Assembly: GCA_004194705.1 (NCBI GenBank)
Contig: SADC01000252.1
Coordinates: 49,175-113,174 of the forward strand
Direction of reading: 5' to 3'
Source of the DNA: Ditylenchus dipsaci
Lineage: Eukaryota > Nematoda > Chromadorea > Rhabditida > Anguinidae
Length of the DNA stretch: 64,000 nucleotides
The notes beneath the pieces were generated by a model. It searched no databases. It was not told the origin of the DNA and worked only from the letters and a program-made list of their open reading frames with translations. The position numbers were made by a program, and so were the translations under genes. Below, one piece after another: positions 7,381 to 53,100 of this stretch. Every line of letters starts with the position of its first letter. The first letter of the stretch is position 1.

Positions 7381-9933
7381 GTCAGTTCGGCTCACCCATG
7401 TTTCTATGGGAACTGCTCCTGGATGTCATTCTGGCAGCCATTTTAGTGGCTTTTCTCAACTACCAGGTTATTTTTGCAAAGGAACACCAAACTTTTTTTA
7501 CTGATTCCATTGTAGTTTGAGACGGCTTTCCGCATGTCCTTCTTCAGTGATGTGCAAGCCAGAAGGGATACAGCCAAAATGCAGTTAGTCAGAGGTCACC
7601 ACATTCTGATCCTTTCATTTTTTTTCACAAAATTTTTTTTAGATCAAGCTGACTGGCTGCTGACCAACATAATTCCACAACATGCAGTCGAGTCGCTCAA
7701 AACCAACACCAAGTACAGTGAGAACCACAACCTGACTGCCGTTTTGTTTGCCTCCATCACCAACTGGAACGAAATGTACGAGGAGAACTTTGAGGGTTGG
7801 TGTTTGTTGGGCTTGATTTTTGGAATTTGGCTATTGGATTTGTAGGTGGGCGAGAGTTTCTGCGAGTGCTCAATGAAGTGATTGGGGATTTCGATGAATT
7901 ATTGGACAGACCAGAGTTTACCCATGTAGAGAAAATTAAGACTATTGTTCCACTTATATGGCTGCTGCTGGTTTGAATCCTGACAAGAGGCGCCTGTCAT
8001 TACATCCTTATGAACATTTATACCAGGTTTGTGTTTATGAAGATTCAAGAACACAGTAAAATAAAAATACACGCTATTTCTAACTATTTCTAACCAAAGA
8101 CCGAGAAATGGCATCCAACAAGGTCAACCCACGGTCCTATTTAGCCCTGTCTACTTGAAATTAGCTTCCTTAAACGGGCTGAAGTACACTATCTGTACCT
8201 GGCGAAATCGGGTTTTAATTATTTTTAGGGCAGTTTTGGACGTGAAAACGATAAAAAAAGACATTTTTGAAAATTCTTTTTCATCGAAATTTGACTTATC
8301 ACCTTGGTCCCCCAAGATAAGCCAACCTGAAAGGGTGCGTGGATAATTGAAAAAGACAAAATTTGAGCATAGTTTTGTTAGTTGGGGCCTATTGCATAGA
8401 GAAACTCTGGTATGCATATATTTTTTATGCATCCAGAGTTCCTAGATACCCTTTCAGGTTGGTTTACCTTGGTACCCCAAGGCAAAAAGTCAAATTTTGG
8501 TCAAAAAAATTTTTTCCGAAAATGTCTTTCCGCGCCCTGAAAACATGTTTTATGGTGTTTTTACGGTCTAAAACGGCCTTAAAAGTGTTTAAAACCCAAT
8601 TTCGGGCAGGCACAGATAGTACACTCCGGTCCTAAAAAGCTAATGCAAATTAATAAAACAAAAATTTCACAGTTTTTGTGAGGTCAAATAATGGTGAAAT
8701 TACATTTTTACAAGAAAATTAAAAAAACTAAAATGAAATCTATTAAAAATCCCCGGAGCTCTTCCTTAACGAAGCTAATTTGGTATGCGCTCATTCTCAC
8801 GTCAAGATTGATTATTCCATTTTGTTCTACATTTTCCCCATTTTTTCACCGAACTTCAAAATACCCTAAAATGTGTTCAAAATTTTTTAAAATGTCGCTA
8901 AAAAATTATTTTATTCAGTTGATGGAATTCGCACTAGCATTGCAAAATGCGCTGACATTTTTCAATCAGGTATATATGTTTTTAAGACTTTTAAAATTAA
9001 AAAAAATCAAACAATGTCAGGATTTGTTGAACTTTGAATTTGTGTGCAAACTGGGGCTGAACATAGGACCTGTCACAGCTGGTGTTATTGGAACAACTAA
9101 ACTATATTATGGTAAAATAATTGCTGTCGAGGTGGTTATTTAGATTAAATTTAAACCATTGCAGATATTTGGGTGATACAGTTAACATTGCGTCAAGGAT
9201 GTACAGTTGTGGTGTAGAAAACAGGATACAGGTAATTTAGCATTTTAATTTCTGGATAGTGGGCCCTTTAAAATGTCCTTTAACCTCGCAATACAGCCCT
9301 TTGTGCTTATTCTTAATTATTTTTCTAGTCTTTTTATGGCAGAATTTTGACTTGAAAATGGCTTTTGTCTAGTGGAGAATCGGTTGCCAAATATTTCTTG
9401 TTCTTCCTGCTGTTTTTTTCATGAAAAACAGCTTGGCTCTCCTGCTGTTTATTACTTATATTTGTTGAAGTTTTAAGTTTTATTACTACAACCATAATGA
9501 AAGGGAGAGACCAAGCTGTTTTCAGGGAGTACCAATGCTTTTTTTTGCGACCGATTCTACAAGAGTCATGCTTTTTGACCACACCTAAAAAGTCGACTGG
9601 GTGGTGGGGAGGGACATGGTAGGAATTTTATAACTAAGGTTTTTTGAATACGGAACTTTTTCATAATATATAAATTTTTAGTTATAACTTATTTTCAAAC
9701 TCATTTTCAGGTCTCACAACACACTCGTGACTTGCTGATCGATCGCTACGACTTTGAATATCGGGATCACATTGAAGTGAAGGGGGTGGATGGTGGAATG
9801 GACACTTATTTGGTAAAAAAAATACTTCTCCAATCCCATCTCACAACAAATAAATTCAATACAAATTTTTTAGTTGGTGGGTCGCAAAGGAGAGCCTCCG
9901 CTCACTGTGCAAACGCCTAATTTCGACATTTGA
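7381..9933 (+). CDS. ADCY9-like adenylyl cyclase, C-terminal (C2) half
   Basis: Membrane adenylyl cyclase, which makes cAMP from ATP; this part covers the last membrane helix and the C2 catalytic domain. Exons: 7381-7466 ([18 protein letters not shown] helix), 7516-7594, 7643-7795 ([32 protein letters not shown]), 7846-8026 ([24 protein letters not shown], then TYMAAAGLN), 8919-8969, 9021-9111 ([14 protein letters not shown]), 9165-9231 (DTVNIASRM), 9711-9812 and 9874-9933 with TGA. The order and wording match human ADCY9 more closely than other isoforms. The Lys of EKIKTI and the Asn and Arg of VNIASR, which serve ATP binding and catalysis, are present. Single-base losses occur near 7948 and 9173. 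Exons upstream of 7381 are not found; RPS17 lies there instead. A foldback element sits in the 8026-8919 intron. Confidence 0.88.
8157..8655. mobile_element. Foldback element in the cyclase intron
   Basis: Arms at about 8157-8340 and 8440-8655 are inverted copies: GTACACTATCTGTACCTG on the left pairs with the region ending CAGATAGTACACTCCGG on the right, and CTTGGTCCCCCAAG pairs with CTTGGTACCCCAAG. The centre contains a second small palindrome, CTCTGGTATGCATATATT. ORFs here are arm artefacts. Confidence 0.7.
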
Positions 9934-44199: not shown

Positions 44200-47100
44200 G
44201 CGAGGGCGCACTCCTCCAGTCCAAGGAGAATCCCTTTGTTCGAAAGGGCATCAGCCAGGTGGTGGAACCCACAATTTGCCTCGTCCACCTGGAGACTCAA
44301 TACTGGAAATGCTCTTTCTCGCTGCTGAAAAATAGATTTCGGTCTGGCTCATCTACATCTTTTTGACTTGCTTGTTGTGGATGCTCTATTTAAAGATATT
44401 TGACCAGGACAGGGCACACCATTGGGTGAGTTTAACGGCGAATATCGATTCGTAGTACTTTATCACCCAACTTTTGAAAATTTTTATTGAAAAATATCAA
44501 TTGTGTAAAGAAAAGTTTTTTGAAAATTAGCCCTAACGTTAAAATCTCTTCCTGAATCCGAATCCGTTAAGATCAGATAGAAATATTTTTAGGAGCTGAG
44601 ATATCCATCTCAGTACGCCAGTGGTGTGAGTTTTCTGACTTGTCTACTCAAAGTAGCTATATCTCAGCTCCCGGAAATATTTTCTGTCTGATCTCAACGG
44701 ATTCGGATTCAGGAAGAGAATTTGGCTTTAGTGGCAGGGGTGATTTTCAAGAAACTTTTCCTTACACAACTGCTATTTTTCAATAAAATTTCCAAAAGTT
44801 GGGTCATCAAGTACCACGAATCGAATATTACTATATTTACCATAGTTTAACAGCAAAAAGTTTGGTTTGAAGATTGGTTGTGTTGTTTTCAGTTAGTGTC
44901 AGGTATGTTAACTGTATTGTGCATCTCCATGCTTTGTTCACATCCTGGTCAGTGCACTACCACGTTTTTATTTGCCTACGTCGTTTCTGTGCATATTCTT
45001 AATTTGTTTGGTCACTCTGCTCATATTCTCCAGCATGGACCCTTTTATGGACCTATGGCTTCAATGGCCACCAGTATTCAGGTTGAAAAAATTCAGGAAT
45101 AATTTTGAAAAACAAAAGAGTCAAATTTGTGATCGAATTTCGGATTAGAAAGCATCAAGAAAATTGTTTTCAAAAAGAGTCAGATTTAAATAAATTCAAA
45201 ACCAGTACTGTAAATCTCGGCACCAGCTAATTAAGTAACTCAGTCATCGGCCGGGCTAGCATTAAATATGACACAAATTTATTTGAGGACATCTTAATTT
45301 TTTAAAATTGAGCCAGGGAATTAGGAAGGAGAAAGTTAAGATAATGCCTTTTGTGATGAAAAACATTTATTTTTTAGTTAATAATTTGGCGTAGAGGCGT
45401 TAGGCCCTTTTTTCCACTTTTTGGCGTTCTGCCTATGTTCTGTTTAGCCACTTAGGCCTTATTTTTTAACTTAGTCTTAGGCTCAGGGTAGGCCACCGTA
45501 CGTTAAGGTACGTTCACATAAAAGTGTCGACCCAAGCGTTCTTTTAACGCGGGAAGAGCTGTACTTTTTTTTCTTGACCAAAACTTTTTTTCTGTTGGTA
45601 TCATTTTGTAGCTAAGATTCAGGGCTTCAAATGAGGTATTGACAAGCCACATCTGAAATGAAAAATTGGGGTAAAAATGCTTAGGTCCGCACTCAGGTCG
45701 ACACTCGGGTCGACACTCACAGAGTGTGGGCCTGAGTGTCGACCTGAGTGCGGACCTAAGCATTTTTACCCCAATTTTTCATTTCAGATGTGGCTTGTCA
45801 ATACCTCATTTTGAAGCCCTGAATCTTAGCTACGAAATGATACCAACAGAAAAAAAGTTTTGGTCAAGGAAAAAAAGTACAGCTCTTCCCGCGTTAAAAA
45901 CACCCAAATCTCACACTCAGGTCGACACTCATTGTGAACGTGCCTTTAGCAGGGACTAAAAAAATGTCTTACGCGCTACAAAATGGCTTGAAAAATAAGG
46001 CCTAAGTGTCTAAGGCCTCAAACACAATGAGGACTCCTCATTGAGGAGTCTGTTTGCGGATGCTAAAACAGATTTGTCGCACGGAAATGGCCATAACTTT
46101 TTTTTCAATTTTTCAAAATTATTCTGTTATTACCATTTTGTAGCGAAGATTCAGCACTACCATATGAGCATTTTATAAAGTAGATGTCCTTTGAAAAATT
46201 GAGATAAAAATGAAAGACTCCGCCCAAGACTCCTGACTCAAATTCTAGTCAGGAGTCTTGGGCGGAGTCTTTCATTTTTATCTCAATTTTTCAAAGGACA
46301 TCTACTTTATAAAATGCTCATATGGTAGCGCTGAATCTTAGCTACAAAATGGTAATAACAGAATAATTTTTGAAAAATTGAAAAAAAAAGTTATGGCTAT
46401 TTCCGTGCGACAAATTTGATTTAGCATCCGCAAACAGATTCCTCATTGTGTTTGAGGCCTAAGACAGAAGATAGGCAGAACGCCAAAAAAAGAAAAAGGG
46501 CCTAAAGCAGGGATGATATCTCAAAATTTCGAAAAAAGTACATTTGGTCAAAAAAAAGTACAATTTGGTCATTTTCGTCAAAAGTGCAATTTTATCCAGT
46601 GCTTATTGCTATTTTAGAGCGAAAAAAAAGATTTTGACTAAAAACTTCAAAAATAAAAAGATTTGGGGTCCCAAAAAAGTACAAATCTTTTAAAAAGTAC
46701 ATATATCATCCCTGGCCTACAGTGTTTTCATAATTGACACTGACATTGACACTGACACTAACGTCAGGCTGACATCTAAAATGACACTAACAATGACATT
46801 GACATCTGACACTGACATGACATTTAAAATGACACTAACATGACACTAAATGTCAGTGTCAGTGTCATTTTAAATGTCATGTCAGTGTCAGTGTCAACAT
46901 GACGTCAGTGTCAGTGTCAATGTCAGTGTCAGTTTAAATGTCAGTGTCATTTTAGATGTCAGTGTCATTTTAAATGTCAGTGTCAGTTTAAATGTCAGTT
47001 TTTAACTGACATGTCAGTTTTAAATTGACATGTTCCTTTGTGTCATGCCATTTAGGTGAGTTTTGAGGTTTCCGCATCTACATTGTATTTGTACATGTAT

Positions 47101-50100
47101 TTGTTTCTTTGTTTGATTTTTAGTTATGTCATTGTATATTCCAGCCTTTATTCTTTAAGATCTCTGCAGTATATGCCATAGTGTTTTAGTTACTCTTCGC
47201 TCTCATACTTCTATCAAGCAAGCAAGCAAAACTGCTCCCGACAGCGGCAAAGGTGTAAACGGACTCGGAAAAGGAGGAGCAAACCGCCATCGCAAAGTTT
47301 GCTCGTTCTCATTTTACTTCAATCACAGCATTTATGCGAGTGTTTTTCTTTCAGATTCTGCTCGACCACATTCAGGAGATCACGAAGCCTTCTATCCGTC
47401 GTCTGGCCCGTTATGGTTGGCTTTTTGAGTCAAGCGCATCTCTGGTCTGATCTACGAAGAAACTCGCAGCGTGCTCAAGACATTCTTGGAGGACGTGATC
47501 CGCGACGCCGTTATCTACACCGAGCACGCCAAGCGCAAGACGGTTGGTTCATTCTCACCCTTCTCATCCGTCTAGTTACTCTTTAATTGTTGTAGGTTAC
47601 CGTCATGGATGTAGTCTATGCTCTGAATCGCCATGAATGAATCGCTGCTGCTGTCCAGAATTTCTCCGAGTTATCTATTGTATTCGTTATCATCTTTACG
47701 TTATTGTCACTTCAAACGCACTCTTTGGTGCTCTGTTGTTTTTCGAATAAAGAATCCCGTTTGAGCTGTTTTTCTTTTGGCACATGTCCTTTTTGTGGGT
47801 TATGAGATTTGATTACAATGGGGGAAAGCTTGAACAGCAGTCTAACCAGGGAGCATTCTGATGTGTCATTTTTCAAAGCCTCGTTGAGAGTTTTTTTACA
47901 GCGTGAAAACGTGAAATGTTTTCAACGTGAAAAGCACACTTCTATAATGAAGTGCTGCCCCTTTTAGATGTCACTTAAAGAAATCCGGGAGACAGGGCTC
48001 CTCCTAAATCTCGAAAAACCATGACGGTATCAGGGGTTCTAAGCCTTTTTCGGGAATATTTCATATTATTCATGATTTTGAGTTTCTAAAGCTTTTTCGG
48101 ACATAGCTATTTACACCAGGATATTATGATTTTACGGTTATTATATGGTTGGTGTATGACTGAACTCAATTACTAGTGATATTTTCCAAACCAAGCGGGT
48201 CTCGTTTTAATTACTTTGAGTGTTCACAGCCAAAAATTTTTACAATGATCGAAACCACCAAAACTTTAGATATGTTACTCATACATATTTAACATATCTA
48301 AGATTCAGGTAGTTTTGACAATGTGAGAAGTTTTCGCGTACTGTTCACTTAAATGAGTTAAGACGATATACGAAAGGTTCTAGACAATGAAGGTGATATC
48401 AGGACTACTAAGGGTATATCAGGGCCATAAGAGTAGTTCAAGACTACTAAAGTATATCAGATCCATTGAGGGTGGGCTTAGGCCTTTAAGGGTAGAACCG
48501 GACTGCTGAATGTTGCCTTGAAAAGTGTTTTGCAAGATTTACGAAAACTGAAAATACCATCAAAACGTAATTTTACTACTGTAAAACCATCTATAGAATG
48601 CTCGAATTAGTGCAGAAACAAATTTTGGAACTCAAAGCGAGAAAAAAATTTGATCTAAGTAAACGACTACTTTGTTTTTTTTATTATATGGGACATCCAG
48701 CAAAACTGCGGTTGGTGCAAAGAAAATGTTTGAATTACCTTTGACCTCCTCGCGGCCAAATATCAGCACACTCCACATTGCGAGGGATAGAATAACATGC
48801 AGTACATGATGTGGTTTAAGAACAACCAAAGAGACACATGAGCGTAGTTTTGCGCAAAAATAAAAATAAAAAAGCGACGAGAACTGGCTGTACACCGAAA
48901 CTGACATGTCAATTTAAAACTGACATGTCAGTGAAAAACTGACATGTCAGTTAAAACTGACATTTAAACTGACACTGACATTTTAAAGGACACTGACATT
49001 TTAAAATGACACTGACATGTCAATTTAAAACTGACATTGACACTGACACTGACGTCATGTTGACACTGACACTGACATGACATTTAAAATGACACTGACA
49101 CTGACTTTAAATGTCAGTGTCAATGTCATTGTCAGTGTGATGTCATTTAGTCAGTGTTAGTGTCAGATGTGATGTCAATTATGAAAACACTGGTCGTAGC
49201 CTTTAGCCAGGGATGATATATGTACTTTTTAAAAGATTTGTACTTTTTTTGGGACCCCAAATTTTTTTATTTTTGAAGTTTTTAGTCAAAATCTTTTTTT
49301 TCGCTCTAAAATAGCAATAAGCACTGGTAAAATTGCACTTTTTGACGAAAAATGACCAAATTGTACTTTTTTGACCAATGTACTTTTTTTCGAAATTTTG
49401 AGATATCATCCCTGCTTTAGGCCTTTTTCTTTTTTTGGCGTTCTGCCCTATCTTCTGTCTTAGGCCTCAACACAATGAGGAATTGTTTGCGGATGCTAAA
49501 TCAATTTGTCGCACGGAATAGCCATAACTTTTTTTTCAATTTTCAAAATTATTCTGTTATTACCATTTTGTAGCGAAGATTCAGCACTACCATATGAGCA
49601 TTTTATAAAGTAGATGTCCTTTTGAAAAATTGAGATAAAAATGAAAGACTCCGCCAAGACTCCTGACTCAATTCTAGTCAGGAGTCTTGGCGGAGTCTTT
49701 CATTTTTATCTCAATTTTTCAAAGGACATCTACTTTATAAAATGCTCATATGGTAGCGCTGAATCTTAGCTACAAAATGGTAATAACAGAATAATTTTTG
49801 AAAAATTGAAAAAAAAGTTATGGCTATTTCCGTGCGACAAATTTGATTTAGCATCCGCAAACAGATTCCTCATTGTGTTTGAGGCCTAAGACAGAAGATA
49901 GGGAACGCCAAAAAAGAAAAAGGGCCTAAAGCAGGGATGATATCTCAAAATTTCGAAAAAAAGTACATTTGGTCAAAAAAGTACAATTTGGTCATTTTTC
50001 GTCAAAAAGTGCAATTTTATCCAGTGCTTATTGCTATTTTAGAGCGAAAAAAAGATTTTGACTAAAACTCAAAATAAAAAGATTGGGGTCCCAAAAAAGT

Positions 50101-53100
50101 ACAATCTTTTAAAAAGTACATATATCATCCCTGGCCTAAAGGCTACGACCAGTGTTTTCATAATTGACATCACATCTGACACTAACACTGACTAAATGAC
50201 ATCACACTGACAATGACATTGACACTGACATTTAAAGTCAGTGTCAGTGTCATTTAAATGTCATGTCAGTGTCAGTGTCAACATGACGTCAGTGTCAGTG
50301 TCAATGTCAGTTTTAAATTGACATGTCAGTGTCATTTAAAATGTCAGTGTCCTTTAAAATGTCAGTGTCAGTTTAAATGTCAGTTTTTAACTGACATGTC
50401 AGTTTTTCACTGACATGTCAGTTTTAAATTGACATGTCAGTTTCGGTGTACAGCCAGTTCTCGTCGCTTTTTTTTTTTATTTTTGCGCAAACTACGCTCA
50501 TGTGTCTCTTTGGTTGTTCTTAACCACATCATGTACTGCATGTTATTCTATCCCTCGCAATGTGGAGTGTGCTGATATTTGGCCGCGAGGAGGTCAAAGG
50601 TAATTCAAACATTTTCTTTGCACCAACCGCAGTTTTGCTGGATCCCATATAATAAAAAAACAAAGTAGTCGTTTACTTAGATCAAATTTTTTTTCTCGCT
50701 TTTGAGTTCCAAAATTTGTTTCTGCACTAATTCGAGCATTCTATAGATGGTTTTACAGTAGTAAAATTACGTTTTGATGGTATTTTCAGTTTTCGTAAAT
50801 CTTGCAAAACACTTTTCAAGGCAACATTCAGCAGTCCGGTTCTACCTTAAAGGCCTAAGCCCACCCTCAATGGATCTGATATACTTTAGTAGTCTTGAAC
50901 TACTCTTATGGCCCTGATATACCCTTAGTAGTCCTGATATCACCTTCATTGTCTAGAACCTTTCGTATATCGTCTTAACTCATTTAAGTGAACAGTACGC
51001 GAAACTTCTCACATTGTCAAAACTACCTGAATCTTAGATATGTTAAATATGTATGAGTAACATATCTAAAGTTTTGGTGGTTTCGATCATTGTAAAATTT
51101 TTTGGCTGTGAACACTCAAAGTAATTAAAACGAGACCCGCTTGGTTTGGAAAATATCACTAGTAATTGAGTTCAGTCATACACCAACCATATAATAACCG
51201 TAAAATCATAATATCCTGTGTAAATAGCTATGTCCGAAAAAGCTTTAGAAACTCAAAATCATGAATAATATGAAATATTCCCGAAAAGGCTAGAACCCCT
51301 GATACCCGTCATGGTTTTTCGAGATTTAGGAGGAGCCCTGTCTCCCGGATTTCTTTAAGTGACATCTAAAAGGGGCAGCACTTCATTATAGAAGTGTGCT
51401 TTTCACGTTGAAAACATTTTCACGTTTTCACGCTGTAAAAAAACTCTCAACGAGGCTTTTGAAAAATGACACATCAGAATGCTCCCTGGTTAGACTGCTG
51501 TTCAAGCTTTCCCCCATTGTAATCAAATCTCATAACCCACAAAAAGGACATGTGCCAAAAGAAAAACAGCTCAAACGGGATTCTTTATTCGAAAAACAAC
51601 AGAGCACCAAAGAGTGCGTTTGAAGTGACAATAACGTAAAGATGATAACGAATACAATAGATAACTCGGAGAAATTCTGGACAGCAGCAGCGATTCATTC
51701 ATGGCGATTCAGAGCATAGACTACATCCATGACGGTAACCTACAACAATTAAAGAGTAACTAGACGGATGAGAAGGGTGAGAATGACCAACCGTCTTGCG
51801 CTTGGCGTGCTCGGTGTAGATAACGGCGTCGCGGATCACGTCCTCCAAAATGTCTTGAGCACGCTGCGAGTTTCTTCGTAGATCAGACCAGAGATGCGCT
51901 TGACTCAAAAAAGCCAACCATAACGGGCCAGACGACGGATAGAAGGCTTCGTGATCTCCTGAATGTGGTCGAGCAGAATCTGAAAAAACACTCGCATAAA
52001 TGCTGTGATTGAAGTAAAATGAGAACGAGCAAACTTTGCGATGGCGGTTTGCTCCTCCTTTTCCGAGTCCGTTTACACCTTTGCCGCTGTCGGGAGCAGT
52101 TTTGCTTGCTTGCTTGATAGAAGTATGAGAGCGAAGAGTAACTAAACACTATGGCATATACTGCAGAGATCTTAAAGAATAAAGGCTGGAATATACAATG
52201 ACATAACTAAAAATCAAACAAAGAAACAAATACATGTACAAATACAATGTAGATGCGGAAACCTCAAAACTCACCTAAATGGCATGACACAAAGGAACAT
52301 GTCAATTTAAAACTGACATGTCAGTTAAAAACTGACATTTAAACTGACACTGACATTTAAAATGACACTGACATCTAAAATGACACTGACATTTAACTGA
52401 CACTGACATTGACACTGACACTGACGTCATGTTGACACTGACACTGACATGACATTTAAAATGACACTGACACTGACATTTAGTGTCATGTTAGTGTCAT
52501 TTTAAATGTCATGTCAGTGTCAGATGTCATGTCATTGTTAGTGTCATTTTAGATGTCAGCCTGACGTTAGTGTCAGTGTCAATGTCAGTGTCAATTATGA
52601 AACACTGGCTACGACCCAATAATTTCATTTATGGCTAAAATTCATTTGCGCCCTCAAAATGCTCATTTACGCCCTCAAATCAATTATTTACGCCCTCAAA
52701 TTTGAAAATTGATCAAATGCTCATTTACGCCCTCAAATTGCTCATTTACGCCTCAAATTTATTATTTACGCCTCAAATCGATCAAAATTGGGTGGGAATT
52801 CCCTATTTTAGATGGCAATATTTTCAGAACTCGAATGGTCTGACTTGTTTAGACTTTTCCAAACCGGTATTCTTCAGTTTCCCTGAGCCATTCTGTAGGA
52901 GAACGCATGAGAAGCTCACTCGAGCGACCCTGAGAGCCGCAAAAAATTTGCACTATATCGAGGTTCGCACTAAATCGGGGTTCCACTTTCGATACTTTCA
53001 AAGACTTTTGACCAAGTCCATCAACTCGAGGTCGCACTAAATCGGGATTGACTGTACCAGAGAGAGAGAGGTAAGTTTTCTCAGGCGGAGGTGCACTGGG

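Follow-up and report, generated by a model that had tools for sequence, protein, structure and literature searches.

Two copies of a transposon, here called E1 and E2, face each other in the window analysed here, a stretch of 64,000 nucleotides from the nematode Ditylenchus dipsaci (contig SADC01000252.1, positions 49,175 to 113,174), and each carries the remains of a histone H4 gene between its ends. The data as a whole are very probably explained by a non-autonomous, hAT-like Pack-TIR element (TIR, terminal inverted repeat), whose captured and already broken H4 gene was spread by transposition. The element family to which both copies belong, hereafter family A, has spread by transposition to more than a dozen places in the genome, and the H4 gene it carries, dead in all copies read, is passive cargo of the Pack-TIR element. 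A preliminary description of the window, based on its letters only, had instead proposed a mobile, amplifiable core-histone gene of the replacement type.

The H4 cargo and its intact relatives

The two elements and the parts of the H4 gene, with positions in the window given for the E1 copy, are as follows.

46720..49192, + strand: E1, element copy 1 of family A, with CAGTGTTTTCATAATTGACA ends, 2473 bases
50150..52607, - strand: E2, element copy 2 of family A, with CAGTGTTTTCATAATTGACA ends, inverted relative to E1, 2458 bases
47190..47230, + strand: 5' leader of H4; similarity to the intron-bearing H4 genes starts about here
47231..47296, + strand: remnant of H4 exon 1; the aligned start codon is ACT, not ATG
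47297..47354, + strand: H4 intron 1, at the position seen in gene L032; borders from GT..AG and alignment
47355..47542, + strand: remnant of H4 exon 2, with an inserted T-run and TGA at 47436-47438
47543..47595, + strand: H4 intron 2
47596..47640, + strand: remnant of H4 exon 3, with a 24-base loss before the stop
47746..47751, + strand: AATAAA

The spliced H4-like gene with AATAAA that had been described is thus recognisable by its exons, its two introns and its AATAAA, but it no longer encodes H4, as its frame is broken. In exon 2 of E1, insertion of the T-run shifts the frame, and the TGA replaces a glycine codon of the intact genes. An exon-anchored alignment places this TGA at codon 44 in 18/18 copies; the T-run is inserted beside it in 16 of these, shifting the frame in most, while L022 and L025 have no T-run and read the TGA directly. 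This lesion is common to the copies, which argues that the gene was broken before they spread. The aligned ATG is retained by a single copy (L022), and eight copies, including E1 and E2, have a 24-base deletion near the C-terminus. Variable sites number 27, 24 and 24 by codon position in the 18 copies, versus 1, 0 and 49 in the seven best intron-bearing H4 genes (a set without L039 and L066) and 4, 1 and 52 in all nine such genes found outside these elements.

A working, amplifiable H4 gene supplying histone from many loci is, on these data, extremely improbable. Introns, leader, AATAAA and most of the exon sequence can still be recognised, and both introns are placed as in gene L032; against this, every copy has its frame disrupted near codon 44, ATG is lost from 17/18, and the exon alignment that had been proposed as a check for constraint reveals none by codon position. 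For the 18 copies read, this reading is refuted, and the proposed mobile core-histone gene falls with it.

The origin of the passive cargo is best sought among the nine intron-bearing H4 genes. Five of them, L032 and L033 (C681), L036 (C1303), L037 (C508) and L038 (C1064), have three frameshift-free exons and encode one identical protein; L034 and L035 show one gap each relative to it, and L039 and L066 differ more. This protein begins MAPGSGKGG, versus MSGRGKGG in canonical H4, and its N-terminus was seen in none of the best 120 of 7991 homologous proteins. AATAAA is present in L032 and L038, the two intron-bearing genes that were printed. Intronless canonical H4 genes also occur in this genome (C1261, C1290), and its canonical H4 is of the TYCEH form, a feature of C. 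elegans H4 that agrees with a nematode source. The element shares exact stretches of 23-45 bases with 7/9 intron-bearing H4 genes, and none with the two canonical genes tried. Since the cargo keeps both introns at their L032 positions, genomic DNA was taken. Among the donor candidates, C681 (L032) comes closest in extent, its match reaching as far as unit position 1126. The search for a parental H4 locus suggested in the preliminary description hence leads to a parental type, namely a separate conserved gene family, but the exact donor is not pinned down, because similarity is only 73-77%.

The following course of events is proposed. An ancestral family A element would have captured a genomic H4 gene, together with its introns, 3' untranslated part and AATAAA, from the intron-bearing H4 gene family, intact members of which persist in the same genome. 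The gene would have been broken, as the shared lesion indicates, before the present copies spread with 8-base-pair (8-bp) target duplications, presumably by cut-and-paste transposition with a transposase supplied in trans. The H4 remnant would now change free of coding constraint.

Spread and classification of family A

A search of the 227-Mb assembly with the unit, in which 40 of 2165 candidates were scored so that counts are a lower bound, gave at least 14 matches spanning most of the unit at 89-100% identity, further ones split by inserts, and many fragments. Exact 8-bp duplications border 17/23 fetched elements with both family A ends, and 16 of them are distinct; this set excludes the one-ended L020, L042, L046 and L051, and L022 is judged by the longer locus L050. 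Sixteen of the 23 contain H4; of these, 13 are bordered by exact 8-bp duplications, 12 of them distinct. L012 and L015, whose flanks are 99.2-99.6% alike and whose duplications are identical, appear to be one locus assembled twice; they are counted once among distinct duplications and twice among the 18 copies, where E1 and E2 also count as two. The genome-wide copy count and border comparison that had been called for therefore yielded many loci with distinct 8-bp duplications, and not a single locus.

For six loci, the two flanks were joined and searched for as uninterrupted sites (40 of 4217 candidates scored). Those of L013, L016 and L017 have uninterrupted matches elsewhere in the assembly at 98-99%. 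L019 sits within a common repeat, other copies of which are uninterrupted (89-97%), L011 gave partial matches only (75-76%), and for L018 no uninterrupted match was found among the matches listed, the best 40 of 4217. Family A thereby combines host gene sequence between transposon ends and intact relatives elsewhere, which define a Pack-TIR, with the distinct duplications and uninterrupted sites expected of amplification by transposition. By eye, the flanks of the L016 insertion (C79:149138) resemble two parts of an intron-containing tRNA gene.

The family A end pattern occurs 577 times forward and 588 times reverse with at most 3 mismatches, compared with 21 and 14 for the reversed control. 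Because these numbers far exceed the control, the H4 carriers are seen as a small branch of a large family. Its terminal inverted repeats read CAGTG...CACTG, with single-base departures in L016 and L021. Short terminal inverted repeats starting YARNG are typical of hAT elements, whose target preference is nTnnnnAn; in the 16 distinct duplications, T is at position 2 in 12 (P 0.0005 versus local base composition) and A at position 7 in 9 (P 0.03). Ends, duplication length and target preference together fit a non-autonomous hAT-like element. The corresponding part of the preliminary description, that such an element captured and mobilised an H4 gene with introns and AATAAA, is upheld by the many loci and their duplications.

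Several observations weigh against this explanation. E1 has no target duplication, with CTGGCCTA on its left and GTCGTAGC on its right; an exact duplication is also lacking in L014, L021 (offset by one base) and L047, and those of L048 and L049 have one mismatch each. Instead of alleles, the uninterrupted sites may be repeats or paralogues. Aligned to individual intron-bearing H4 genes in pieces of 501-687 bases, the cargo is only 73-77% similar. The assembly apparently has many one-base indels; as differences between E1 and E2 are mostly one-base gaps, private frameshifts were not used as evidence of decay, for which the shared codon-44 lesion, the lost ATG and substitutions were taken. Finally, hAT dimerisation domains are matched at least 150 times in this genome (150 of 2005 candidates scored), but in about 950 bases of 3' flank from 14 of these 150 no 16-base stretch came within 2 differences of a family A end; nor was a transposase tied to these ends in a Pfam scan of L047, L048 and L049, which are 2.0-4.9 kilobases (kb) long and have family A-type ends.

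As a possible partner, L080 was the loosest end candidate, with 3 differences, and was dropped when no matching 5' end was found in its longer locus, L085. Of L047-L049, only L048 (C90, 4.9 kb) contains transposase-like pieces: MADF scores above the Pfam cut-off, and pieces of HTH_Tnp_4 and DDE_Tnp_4 lie below it, on both strands. L048 may hold a nested element. MADF and weak DDE_Tnp_4/HTH_Tnp_4 pieces are unexpected in a hAT element.

The facing pair and its setting

Further features of the pair are listed below.

46720..47033, + strand: left end of E1 and subterminal array of TGACA/TGTCA units
48898..49192, + strand: right subterminal array of TGACA/TGTCA units and end of E1
49208..50133, no strand: palindromic repeat with CAGGGATGATAT ends, at the centre of the E1/E2 pair
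50142..50149: left target duplication of E2, GCTACGAC, an exact match to the right one
52608..52615: right target duplication of E2, GCTACGAC, an exact match to the left one

E1 and E2 form an inverted pair centred near 49671, and much of what had first been described here stands: two units of about 2.46 kb with matching ends in inverted orientation, terminal arrays of iterated units in both elements, and exact 8-bp direct repeats at the borders of the second copy. The units have no transposase-length frame, the longest open frame being 149 amino acids. In the multi-copy alignment, E1 and E2 differ at 5/2451 compared bases, while the copies next nearest to E1 diverge from it by 1.7-2.0%; the pairwise alignment has 13 substitutions, several of them at one trimmed end and in one misaligned run. 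The right flank of E1 is the reverse complement of the E2 octamer GCTACGAC, and its left end adjoins another copy of the central palindromic repeat. Palindromic repeats with CAGGGATGATAT ends thus flank both H4 elements, at 49208-50133 and at about 46098-46716.

Because only E2 has its duplication, the pair is read either as a local inverted duplication or as an assembly fold-back. The simplest reading is a single insertion, that of E2, which would have been followed by local inverted duplication around the intervening palindromic repeat. A fold-back of the assembly, with no real duplication, is the alternative, possible but less likely than not: the pairwise alignment of E1 and E2 has 24 gap events, 20 of them of one base, which resembles read error, and the symmetry is centred on a palindromic repeat, but this symmetry ends at the outer element ends and does not continue into the flank.

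The preliminary description had also placed the pair inside a cyclase intron, which is unsupported. Adenylate-cyclase-9-like coding sequence, with homologues among nematodes, lies at 7516-7842, and a six-frame scan of the window for three cyclase motifs matched once, at about 9175. Together, homology and motif place the cyclase at 7.5-9.2 kb, and a location of the pair within its intron was discarded, although a distant further cyclase exon is possible. Ten open frames sampled along the window, including the cyclase piece, had no Pfam match.

Shared cargo in other families and comparison with known systems

Downstream of the H4 remnant, E1 contains a stretch that recurs in other transposon families.

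48094..48428, + strand: segment D, also in family B (same order), in family C and at C232 (L070)

Family B has ends of the type GGCTGTACGAAG (GGCTGTACGAAGTTTCGTAACA) and TTTCGTAACA arrays, unrelated to the ends and arrays of family A; its end matches number 315 + 309, with 0 + 0 in the control. Its loci include L052-L062, L029 and L030, and most carry a related broken H4, with segment D behind it, order and orientation matching those of family A. Between the two families, segment D matches at 74-78%. Of 14 family B loci read, 11 are without residues ~59-80, which L029 keeps, and the aligned ATG is present in 0/14. L030 and L031, both outside the family B set of the codon-position count, have lost most of exons 1 and 2. 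Ten family B elements have both ends; exact duplications of 8 bp border five of them and of 9 bp two, and three have neither. The H4 exons are therefore linked to the CAGTG ends in family A, as the preliminary description required, whereas in family B related exons stand between different ends.

Family C (L067, L068) has CAGTGTTTTCAATAATGAGA-type ends and also carries segment D; its end matches number 12 + 19, versus 0 + 0 in the control. In L068, 36-42 bases resembling the H4 leader adjoin other sequence; the script that found this leader did not find one in L067. Gene pieces were looked for in L068 in six frames, with no Pfam match. In L038, some 240 bases separate the AATAAA of the intact H4 gene from a family C end beyond it.

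Two accounts of this shared cargo are about equally likely. In the first, families A and B captured H4 independently from one host locus with segment D downstream, a locus since lost or outside the assembly; this is quite possible, if short of probable. In the best tree of the H4 part, which left out L030, L031, L053 and L054, A and B each stand apart with support 100 and their lineages are not one clade. Family A also keeps the 5' leader, while most family B loci have a different internal deletion and none an aligned ATG. In addition, segment D is present at C232 (L070), where any resemblance to a family A or B end in the 2.3 kb fetched takes at least 5 edits. Against independent capture, the data do not reject a clade uniting A and B (p-AU, the P value of the approximately unbiased test, 0.33, for a group named after the tree was seen). 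Moreover, in the loci fetched no intron-bearing H4 gene has segment D within about 1 kb downstream, save the case of L038, near which an inverted family C fragment borders on D. A genome search with segment D (40 of 57 candidates scored) matched none of the contigs of intron-bearing H4 genes; of the D-bearing places outside known elements, four were fetched, C332 and C25 being among those left out.

In the second account, which has a comparable chance of being correct, the cargo moved between transposon families, with the ends replaced around an inherited core of H4 and segment D. The same pieces occur in the same order and orientation in A and B despite their unrelated ends and arrays, and L068 of family C also joins its H4-like leader to segment D. 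However, no intermediate was seen, the leader match is short and is confined to one of the two family C loci, and the joins of the A, B and host groups in the tree have supports of 48-62. An unlikely further step would be that the H4 + D core passed between families with unrelated ends (A, B, perhaps C) as a long-lived unit, and that inverted pairs could make double-stranded RNA matching the intron-bearing H4 genes, thereby tying the element to control of this unusual H4 family.

A literature search on histones in transposons and on Pack-type elements, covering titles and abstract openings, with most subscription journals outside it, found no transposon-borne H4. Transposons of the hAT type with histone H3 have been reported in the fungi Pyrenophora tritici-repentis (PMC3538342) and Pseudocercospora fijiensis and relatives (PMC6710886). 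As in family A, a core histone gene lies between hAT ends and is amplified to many copies; P. fijiensis shows 8-bp duplications, its extra copies being inactive (PMC6710886), and P. tritici-repentis has a short non-autonomous form (PMC3538342). Here, by contrast, the histone is H4 and the host a nematode instead of a fungus. The H3 of P. fijiensis is intronless, which pointed to a transcript or retrocopy (PMC6710886), whereas the H4 of family A keeps its introns and so points to genomic DNA. The copies of P. tritici-repentis are putatively active (PMC3538342). The units described here have no transposase-length frame.

Among animals, Pack-TIRs likewise have a host gene piece between TIR ends and target duplications, and 208 of 370 in a published survey are hAT elements; in reference genomes just four cases there are multicopy, to which the fly family Ssk-FB4 is added, and a frog hAT Pack-TIR has three copies with three duplications (PMC8277862). 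Family A differs in that its H4 carriers have 12 distinct duplications and that the piece carried is nearly a whole gene. In nematodes, Turmoil-1 of C. elegans likewise is a transposable element that transduplicates host coding sequence, but from other genes (rsp-2, cpg-3) and within its inverted terminal repeats (PMC2572040).

Core histones, among the most constrained genes, are now seen in hAT-like elements both as H3 in fungi, from published work, and as H4 in a nematode, and repeated histone capture by the same kind of transposon would call for a reason. Family A additionally provides a multicopy animal Pack-TIR, a kind that is rare in the published survey, and transfer of cargo from transposon to transposon becomes testable through the related cargo of element families whose ends are unrelated.

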